Assembly (NCBI GenBank): GCA_017303395.1
Contig: JAFLBN010000002.1
Location: 124,001-188,000 of the forward strand
DNA from: Chitinophagales bacterium
GTDB taxonomy: Bacteria; Bacteroidota; Bacteroidia; Chitinophagales; Chitinophagaceae
Direction of reading: 5' to 3'
Length of the DNA stretch: 64,000 nt
Shown here: positions 53,332-55,180 of the stretch, in pieces
How positions within the stretch are numbered: position 1 is the stretch's first letter
Layout of the letters: the number at the start of each line of letters is the position of its first letter
Notes under the pieces: model-generated
Told to the model about the DNA's origin: nothing
Database searches by the model: none
What the model saw: the letters and a program-made list of their open reading frames with translations, nothing else
Made by a program: the position numbers and the translations under genes

Positions 53332-53745
53332 TTAGCAGTATTGTTCGAAAGCCTGCAGCAAGTTTTGCGCTATCATTTGCGCAGGGCGGCCTTCAATCAT
53401 GTGGCGTTCTATCATGTGTACCACCTGTCCGTCTTTCAGCAATGCAATGCATGGAGAAGATGGAGGGTAAGGTAGCAGATAGTTGCGTGCCTGTTTTACA
53501 GCGTCAACATCATAACCTGCAAAGGTTGTCAGTATCTGGTCTGGTTTTTTTGTAGCATTGTTTACAGCCATTATAACACCCGGACGCGCAGTACCGGCAG
53601 AACAACCGCAAACAGAGTTGATGAACAACAGGGCAGTACCACTTTGTTTCAGTGCAGCATCAGCATCGGCAGGAGTCAACAATTCTTTAAAACCCTGGTT
53701 TGTCACTTCGGCCTTCATCGGGGCCACTATTTCTGTAGGATACAT
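53332..53745 (-). CDS. BrxA/BrxB family bacilliredoxin
   Basis: 137 residues, thioredoxin-like DUF1094 family. The redox motif C46-G-C48 in NSVCGCSAGTARPG and YPPSSPCIALLKDGQVVHMIERH are diagnostic. In Bacillus such proteins remove bacillithiol from oxidised proteins; whether this host makes bacillithiol is not visible here. A perfect -7 box (TAATTTTG, 53767-53774) precedes it. Confidence 0.92.
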   Translation of the reverse strand: MYPTEIVAPMKAEVTNQGFKELLTPADADAALKQSGTALLFINSVCGCSAGTARPGVIMAVNNATKKPDQILTTFAGYDVDAVKQARNYLLPYPPSSPCIALLKDGQVVHMIERHMIEGRPAQMIAQNLLQAFEQYC

Positions 53746-53839: not shown

Positions 53840-53870
53840 CTGTTCTGTTCATGTTCATGAACATGAACGC
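53840..53870 (-). repeat. Left arm of 31-base inverted repeat with perfect 22-base palindrome
   Basis: The core 53847-53868 reads GTTCATGTTCA followed by its exact reverse complement. With the flanking CTGTTCT and GC it is repeated in inverted orientation at 54306-54336. Followed by AAAAACGCGTTTTTTACAAC at 53881-53900. Confidence 0.85.
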
Positions 53871-53934
53871 TTTTCTTTTTAAAAACGCGTTTTTTACAAC
53901 AACAGAGATTATTAGCAGACATATTAAGGCAAAC

Positions 53935-53956
53935 CGTTCATGAACGTTCATGAACG
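53935..53956. repeat. Tandem GTTCATGAAC palindrome
   Basis: Two adjacent copies of the 10-base palindrome GTTCATGAAC, together a 22-base perfect palindrome with flanking C and G. Followed by AAAACACGTTTTTTACAAC at 53968-53986, which matches the sequence behind the previous palindrome. Confidence 0.85.
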
Positions 53957-54243
53957 CTGAACACTTTAAAACACGTTTTTTACAACCTCTGTATGATTAT
54001 AACTTATTTACAAATTATTACAAAACAATAAATTAAATATGTTGGTTTTAAGAGCATAGTGGTAATAGCTGGTAGTAGTATGTACAATGCTGATATAACA
54101 CTTGCTCTATACTGCATGACAAACGATTAAGCTAATTGATAGTACCCATATCTAATCCTGCTTTTGCTGAAAAAGAGATTGTAATGATATAGAATCTTAC
54201 ATGTTAATGGTACAACTATGCAAATGTGCAGTTTAAAGGTGTC

Positions 54244-54261
54244 CACCGTCCATGAACGGTG
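54244..54261 (-). repeat. Degenerate CACCGTCCATGAACGGTG palindrome
   Basis: Imperfect 18-base palindrome centred on CATG. Read on the reverse strand it is followed by GACACCTTTAAACTGC, similar to the bases after the second palindrome (AACACTTTAAAACACG), so it is a diverged inverted copy of the same unit. Confidence 0.6.
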
Positions 54262-54305
54262 TAACAGAAACCGCCAAGACAAAATGCGCATTTTAAAAAC
54301 ACAGG

Positions 54306-54347
54306 GCGTTCATGTTCATGAACATGAACAGAACAGAACAGAACAGC
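54306..54347 (+). repeat. Right arm of inverted repeat plus GAACA pentanucleotide repeat
   Basis: Holds the same 22-base perfect palindrome (54308-54329) as the left arm in inverted context. Its edge runs into four tandem GAACA units (54326-54346); the left arm has only two such units (as TGTTC). Confidence 0.85.
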
Positions 54348-54360
54348 AATAAAAGAATAC

Positions 54361-54386
54361 TGCTCGGTGCTCGGAAATCCGAGCGG
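54361..54386 (+). repeat. 26-base CTCGG hairpin element, copy 1
   Basis: GCTCGG-AAAT-CCGAGC hairpin inside a 26-base element that recurs in inverted orientation at 55132-55157. It lies downstream of the lipoprotein gene and may end its transcript. Confidence 0.75.
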
Positions 54387-54488
54387 CCTCTCTTTACAAA
54401 CTTTCATAACTTATTGATAATCAATAAACATGAAAAAGTCCGTCATTCAGGATATAGAACAACGGACTATAAAGTATATAAGAATCAT

Positions 54489-55070
54489 CTAATCTCTGCG
54501 GGTAACCCTGAAGTTGAATTCACCACCTGTGAATTCTTTCTTATCACTGCTGTTGTAATTGTACATGGTAGATGCACAGTTACCCGATATTGCATAGATG
54601 GTAACAGGTGCACCCAGTAACGTATCTTTTCTTACCGTGGTTATTTTATCAATCTTCACATATCCTTTTGCACCTGCTGTATGTATAGAATACCAATACA
54701 CATCCGGTTCACTTTTAGAAAAGCTGATTTCTGCATTGATATTCGTATCTGCACAACTGATTGTTTTGCCCACTAGTGCCATCAACTCGGCATCAGTTAC
54801 TTTATGTCCATTTGGCCATGTAAGCCTTATACCTGCAGAAGGATAAACATCAATAACACTACCTACCTGATAACCACCAACTTCATTTTCACTGAAATAC
54901 ATGTATTGTTCATTATCTGCATTCAGGTTATACTTCTCTCCATCAAAGCTGAAGTTGAAATAATAAGGAAATGGTGCAGGTGTATTGTTATTGGCAGGTG
55001 CGGTTGTCTTGTCTTTTGAACATGAGTCCATTAATACTGCTAGCAAAAGTAGGTTTGTAAGTTTTTTCAT
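54489..55070 (-). CDS. Hypothetical lipoprotein
   Basis: 193 residues. Lipoprotein signal (1-18) with a lipobox-like LMDSC before the cysteine, then a Thr/Pro/Asn-rich linker (KDKTTAPANNNTPAPFP) and a beta-rich domain with two further cysteines (SCADTN, GNCAST), resembling small Bacteroidota lipoproteins of unknown function. The frame runs back to 55151, but the extra part includes the hairpin element, so the start at 55070 (MKKLTNLL) is chosen. It is bracketed by inverted copies of a 26-base palindromic element, which suggests a gene inserted or moved as a unit. Confidence 0.65.
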   Translation of the reverse strand: MKKLTNLLLLAVLMDSCSKDKTTAPANNNTPAPFPYYFNFSFDGEKYNLNADNEQYMYFSENEVGGYQVGSVIDVYPSAGIRLTWPNGHKVTDAELMALVGKTISCADTNINAEISFSKSEPDVYWYSIHTAGAKGYVKIDKITTVRKDTLLGAPVTIYAISGNCASTMYNYNSSDKKEFTGGEFNFRVTRRD

Positions 55071-55126
55071 AAAGTGGATTGAATACACAATATATATGCT
55101 GCAATATGAAAATGCAAAAATAAAAT

Positions 55127-55157
55127 GCTCGCCGCTCGGAAATCCGAGCACCGAGCA
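55127..55157 (-). repeat. 26-base CTCGG hairpin element, copy 2, in an extended stem
   Basis: Inverted copy (55132-55157) of the element at 54361, with the loop again AAAT on the plus strand. With GCTCG at 55127-55131 it forms a 13-base-pair stem with two mismatches. Leftward it is followed by ATTTTATTTTT, so it probably terminates the FTCD transcript. Confidence 0.75.
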
Positions 55158-55180
55158 CTTGGTATAAAATCTGTAATATA

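Follow-up and report, generated by a model that had tools for sequence, protein, structure and literature searches.

The palindrome cluster and its setting

The window, a 64,000-nucleotide stretch from a Chitinophagaceae genome (G000; 3.76 Mb in 44 contigs), contains a cluster of palindromes at 53840-54336, between a bacilliredoxin-type gene and a lipoprotein-like ORF (Table 1). Two identical 22-bp palindromes, GTTCATGTTCATGAACATGAAC, lie 461 bp apart within 56-nt inverted arms that are 84% complementary; a tandem 20-bp palindrome, GTTCATGAACGTTCATGAAC, sits about 86 bp inside the left 22-mer, and a degenerate one lies on the right side. Next to each palindrome is an A/T box (TTTAAAAAC[AG]C at P1 and P4, variants of it at P2 and P3); palindrome and box together are here called a module. 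Left and right modules face opposite ways on either side of an AT-rich core, and the interval between them is free of genes. The preliminary description had recognized two inverted 22-mers about 460 bases apart, a tandem and a degenerate palindrome between them, and a gene-free setting, all of which is confirmed: no gene-sized ORF covers the core, where mechanical ORFs of 44, 54 and 63 aa overlap the right part. It had also described similar tails, which is true of the AAAAC[AG][CT]GTTTT tail that follows both left palindromes, at 53882 and 53968, but not of TACAAC, found only on the left, after both copies, and replaced by AAAATGCGCATTTT in the right copy.

Table 1. Features of the palindrome cluster and its neighbours, by position in the window.
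Feature	Position	Strand	Description
Left neighbour	53332..53745	-	Bacilliredoxin-type protein (PF06491); outside the element
Left module 1 (P1)	53840..53900	+	Palindrome 53847-53868, spacer, TTTAAAAACGCGTTTTTT box, TACAAC
Left module 2 (P2)	53933..53986	+	Tandem GTTCATGAAC palindrome 53936-53955, tail GAACACTTTAAAACACGTTTTTTACAAC; tail like the DUF3987 5' leaders of C6, G004 and G006
AT-rich non-coding core	53987..54225	.	28.9% GC (40.4% in the window); 96 nt (54016-54111) 79% conserved in G008; right part not alignable by BLAST
Degenerate right module (P3)	54226..54261	-	Palindrome CACCGTCCATGAACGGTG 54244-54261; not recognised in G008; tail like leaders, not 3' side
Right module (P4)	54275..54336	-	Box GCATTTTAAAAACAC and palindrome 54308-54329; matches DUF3987 3' end/stop region on C6, 87% over 60 nt, E 2e-12
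Right neighbour	54489..55070	-	Lipoprotein-like ORF, no Pfam match; outside the element

No equivalent of the lipoprotein-like ORF was seen upstream of ftcD in the relative G002. Inverted repeats of the GTGCTCGGAAATCCGAGC type flank this gene (54360-54388 and 55126-55159) and recur near ftcD in G002 and G008. Most other palindromes in the window resemble ordinary terminators with A...T flanks. The cluster palindromes were considered as intrinsic terminators (a stem-loop with a T-run or A...T flanks) and set aside: by eye they show neither a T-run nor terminator-type flanks, and they differ in their flanks from the other window palindromes and from the usual terminators of this genome.

Zero-loop palindromes scoring at least 10 number only seven in 464 kb of the genome, sampled as the window plus twenty 20-kb stretches, and three of the seven belong to this cluster. 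Taken as a whole, the gap is strongly but not uniquely self-complementary, ranking second among the 48 gaps of 300-1000 bp in the same sample (z 10.4; the top gap reaches 11.6). By itself GTTCATGAAC is not special: it occurs at ten places genome-wide against five for the reversed control, with four of the ten in the cluster and two at the C6 cassette described below. The box TTTAAAAAC[AG]C was found three times in 509 kb of this genome (1.6 expected), in P1, in P4 and in the C6 helicase leader. The three occurrences of AAAACRYGTTTT in 501 kb (0.4 expected) are in P1, in P2 and directly after the stop of the DUF3987 gene of the C43 cassette, beside an unrelated palindrome; the motif was not found in the C6 region or in the other scanned cassette regions.

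Modules around a putative helicase gene

A DNA search of 59 genomes, this one included, gave matches in seven. The informative ones are contig C6 of this genome, with two places 1.47 kb apart, G004, also with two places (1.46 kb apart), G006, with a single one, and the orthologous locus in G008. On C6 and in G004, the two palindromes bracket a single gene, DUF3987 (PF13148, E 2e-54 on C6), with one palindrome in the leader of this putative helicase gene and one right after its stop codon, before a primase gene. The gene that follows DUF3987 on C6 has BT4734_N and PriCT_2 domains, and its G004 counterpart is 63% identical. A structural model of the DUF3987 protein (pLDDT 81) has 43 Foldseek matches at E <= 0.001, all to MCM-containing structures (MCM/CMG) at low query-normalised TM-scores of 0.33-0.44, and its fold is predicted to be MCM helicase-like. 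The best two matches of the primase model (pLDDT 72) are to RSF1010 RepB', one of them bound to initiator DNA, and are weak (E 0.015 and 0.087). A sequence search of solved structures returned no convincing match. DUF3987 domains found with other primases have been predicted to be helicases of mobile elements, and BT4734-like is listed as a primase family (PMC5862659).

In 20 of the 195 family genomes searched there are DUF3987 proteins at E 1e-60 or better. Plasmid and phage copies are only distant ones, below 30% identity (five records each). The cassettes lie near anti-phage genes: G004 has a type II restriction-modification pair, C43 a HigB-like toxin gene that scores as PD-Lambda-2_A, C10 a SIR2/ThsA-like gene and G011 a type IIG enzyme. 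A tyrosine integrase gene lies near DUF3987 at the loci L127 and L128; among the part of the ORFs scanned near C6, C43 and G004, no integrase was seen by eye. In related genomes the sequences that flank the C6 cassette enclose different content: G008 has HamA and a DEAD-box helicase gene there, G012 a fragment of BT4734, and G002 other genes again. By this comparison the C6 site is a hotspot. The cassette is presumably mobile. The Hachiman-like HamA and DEAD-box helicase genes occupy 2008-5081 of L232 (G008:C30), at the site of the C6 cassette of G000. Beside the cassette itself, at 3713-4929 of L134 (G000:C6), are ORFs of 205 and 186 aa with no Pfam or PADLOC match, which could be cargo of unknown type.

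The palindromes differ between cassettes, yet they come back in the same position. Among the 19 short DUF3987 genes at the 33 loci examined, 12 have a palindrome scoring at least 10 that starts no more than 30 nt from the stop, compared with 58 of 342 control genes (Fisher 2e-5), although this and the following tests overstate independence, because orthologues (C10, G002, G008) and palindromes that are nearly identical (G006, G014) enter the count more than once, and draw all their controls from G000. All 12 cases come from this genus or from G172. An order-wide set, with a looser limit for the short form (frame below 640 aa), has such a palindrome in 1 of 10, and pooling (13 of 29) weakens the contrast (Fisher 9e-4); a palindrome after the DUF3987 stop is not universal. 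Where BT4734 lies within about 120 nt of DUF3987, a palindrome scoring at least 10 follows the stop in 6/6 pairs, against 7/77 co-directional control pairs (Fisher 4.5e-6). Self-complementarity reaches a z of at least 6 in seven of nine helicase-primase gaps and in 10 of 122 control gaps, with modest values in G010 (4.4) and G436 (3.2); G514 was left out of this statistic because its two genes leave no gap.

Within each of the cassettes C6, C43 and G004, the palindromes on both helicase flanks have a common core, and outside the two flanks of its own cassette the C43 palindrome was not found in the 15 genus genomes. The central spacer is 0 to 7 nt long, depending on the cassette. In G010, CGCATTTTAAAAACAC stands as in P4 next to a short palindrome with 6-bp arms, between a DUF3987 3' fragment and BT4734. 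The DUF3987-BT4734 gap of G436 (L178), from another family, contains four tandem GTTCCATTTCCCGAAAATGGAAC palindromes with 9-10-bp arms and similar tails, an origin-like array; the match of the G436 gene is interrupted by a stop.

Tails were compared over the 32 nt beyond each palindrome, with 2000 shuffles of single bases as the reference. The tails of P2 and of the G008 counterpart of P1 match the DUF3987 leaders of C6, G004 and G006, with 0-2 of 2000 shuffles reaching the score, and that of P1 matches them more weakly. The P4 tail has its best match on the C6 3' side (score 18, 0/2000 shuffles). The P3 tail resembles leaders and not the 3' side, and for the right tail in G008 the 3' side of DUF3987 gives no match (shuffle fractions 0.17 and 0.83), so a reading with both ends in order rests on P2, G008-P1 and P4. 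BLAST also aligns the C6 leader palindrome to the right window palindrome (E 3.5e-6), because the palindromes are self-complementary. Since left tails resemble the helicase leader and the P4 tail its 3' side, P2 and P4 may be interpreted as the two ends of a gutted cassette that has lost its gene. Among the blastn and tblastx matches listed for the core, nothing convincing points to DUF3987 (best tblastx E 0.085); the core was rejected as a DUF3987 remnant, and an internal deletion is therefore not directly readable.

Distribution among related genomes

Among the 15 genomes of the genus set, the exact 16-mer core of the 22-bp palindrome occurs only in the window, on C6 and in G008, and the tandem form is present in 3 of 294 family genomes, all three from this genus. 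The 22-bp form was searched in the genus, in viral contigs and in the 59-genome DNA search. The 16-mer is present in 44 IMG/VR stretches, which contain neither the 22-mer nor, within the sequence covered, genes for DUF3987 or BT4734; these are taken as chance matches. Having so few loci, the cluster was rejected as a chromosomal segregation or macrodomain site, and the segregation locus proposed in the preliminary description is not supported. Dispersal in hundreds of copies, which that description had named as an argument against a specific local function, is not seen in a genome-wide search, and dispersed repeats were rejected. REP/BIME repeats have a high copy number and a GTAG or CGTC tag (PMC3733652), and identity with them was ruled out with only two loci in the genome. 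Absence from close relatives, named as a second such argument, holds for G002 but not for G008.

Both 22-mers are nearly unchanged in G008, agreeing at 43 of 44 positions, whereas identity is 75% in the aligned left part and 87-88% in neighbouring DNA. This agreement has a binomial probability of 5e-5 against a 75% background but is only mildly unusual (0.025) against 88%, and either left palindrome of G000 might be the orthologue. G000 has two modules per strand and G008 one; G000 carries an extra left module. G008, a 91% complete genome, has only a 41% DUF3987 homologue; no C6-type cassette and no BT4734 were found in it. G002 lacks the stretch between the palindromes, the missing part running roughly from palindrome to palindrome. 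Its bacilliredoxin DNA is closer to that of G000 (94.4%) than that of G008 is (90.6%), and loss in G002 appears the simpler reading, judged from one gene and its flanks rather than from a tree. A deletion at the base of the long inverted repeat would also explain the state of G002. Regions upstream of bacilliredoxin were compared at 9 of 13 loci. In G006 (L053), this region contains an ORF with a GKS P-loop, RepA-like by eye, which begins some 330 nt before the bacilliredoxin start. The genomes G002, G008 and G012 seem to have many scattered copies of a short CGTCATTGCGAGGA-type repeat.

Candidate roles and comparison with known systems

We favor, at a probability of roughly 0.4, the view that the cluster reproduces, without the genes, the cis-acting modules of a small and presumably mobile helicase-primase cassette, and so is an orphaned origin-like site. 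The locus probably served such a cassette as a start or control site and is now orphaned. Because its modules resemble those of the helicase-primase cassette elsewhere in the genome, two proposals of the preliminary description, a replication-like locus and the relic of a small mobile element, gain support together. The cassette would encode an MCM-like helicase (DUF3987) and a primase of archaeo-eukaryotic type (BT4734_N with PriCT_2). Its modules may form hairpins or bind these two proteins, and would be the replication-initiation (priming) site of the pair: helicase and primase would be loaded there and would melt the AT-rich core, with priming at the hairpins. The window locus could still be recognised in trans by a cassette that is resident or newly arriving.

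An operator array, which the preliminary description had also proposed as a multi-site operator, is the main rival, since the leader modules lie near a promoter-like box. The palindromes would bind a cassette- or host-encoded repressor of the helicase operon, leaving the window copy as an orphan operator cluster. In the intact leaders of C6, G004 and G006 the palindrome starts 8-13 nt downstream of a TACATTTG box, which we take to fit the Bacteroidota -7 consensus, close to the expected transcription start, and several palindromes have zero loop. The commonest palindrome site, however, is after the helicase stop and not at a promoter, the variable central spacing suits hairpins better than a dimer of fixed geometry, and the window modules have neither a TACATTTG box nor a gene to control; we regard the operator as doubtful. 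Position between two co-directional genes would also suit RNA hairpins, that is, intercistronic stem-loops that tune the helicase and primase mRNA through attenuation or stability, with the window copy as a transcribed remnant. Predicted stems (single-strand DNA parameters; the C6 stretch used did not include the C6 palindrome) have z-scores of -2.2 to -2.7 for the window modules, -4.6 for G004 and -9.0 for C43. No T-run follows the palindromes by eye, the window copies lie on both strands outside any operon, and the cluster has no Rfam match at the gathering threshold, on which ground a known RNA family was rejected; we consider RNA hairpins improbable.

A third reading, also rather unlikely in our estimation, takes the palindromes as termini of a transposable DUF3987 unit, of which the window copy would be an inert relic, dead or resembling a miniature inverted-repeat element (MITE). 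The similarity between window and C6 does stop near the palindromes on both sides, the G002 gap has roughly the same limits, and the P2 and P4 tails suit a gutted unit. MITEs have many copies and terminal inverted repeats with target duplication. The window holds the single gene-less copy in this genome, with one more in G008, and neither a target duplication nor a clean empty site was seen by eye; MITE identity was rejected. The part of C6 common to G012 begins beyond the promoter-like box, which contradicts the palindromes as exact cassette ends there, and the near-identity of the 22-mers between G000 and G008, despite the divergence of the aligned left part, is unlike dead sequence. That near-identity, where no matching cassette was found, would be explained if the site were a live orphan origin kept by the host lineage, whose opposed hairpin priming sites recruit or titrate the helicase-primase of defence-carrying satellites as a decoy or trigger, a proposal to which we assign little likelihood.

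Under the favored reading of an orphaned origin-like site, the palindrome-plus-box modules are a concrete candidate cis-acting site for DUF3987 cassettes. In a limited part of the DUF3987/BT4734 literature we found no such site described, and the palindrome-cassette arrangement was not recognised in the titles and abstracts of the literature searched. Palindromes specific to each element predict cassette-specific recognition, the replication of a group of defence-carrying islands becomes directly testable, and orphan origin-like sites can be spotted in gene-free DNA.

The closest parallel may be the crenarchaeal plasmid pRN1, a primase-helicase replicon whose putative origin is a stem-loop on the 3' side of the replication gene; its structure is conserved while its sequence is not, and it is functional when moved (PMC4234260). 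The same paper states that it has no direct evidence of origin function. The cassettes carry a predicted archaeo-eukaryotic primase and a predicted helicase, genes that the window locus lacks, and a putative stem-loop lies close behind the stop of the replication gene in all of the cassettes with a close primase gene, the palindromes being mostly different. Unlike pRN1, they encode helicase and primase as separate genes, their stems are 10-22 bp, the window copy is gene-less, and the origin role is here inferred; a mechanism comparable to that of the pRN1 origin is suggested by analogy. The IncQ plasmid RSF1010, whose RepB' gave the weak structural matches above, has the priming sites ssiA and ssiB, used with the RepB' primase, and provides a model for priming at hairpins (PMC4434180). 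The window cluster likewise has hairpin and 3' tail units on both strands in opposite orientation; it differs in that the GTG start triplet occurs in one of its four tails, that of P4. PICMI phage satellites carry a DUF3987 primase together with an integrase, AlpA and Fis in one island (PMC10803314). None of these genes was seen at the window locus; the loci with a tyrosine integrase gene near DUF3987 (L127, L128) are similar, although the host here belongs to Chitinophagaceae. IncQ satellite plasmids lose replication genes (PMC6925257), and the window copy resembles them as a gene-less derivative that keeps cis-acting sites, with the difference that it is chromosomal and also present in G008.
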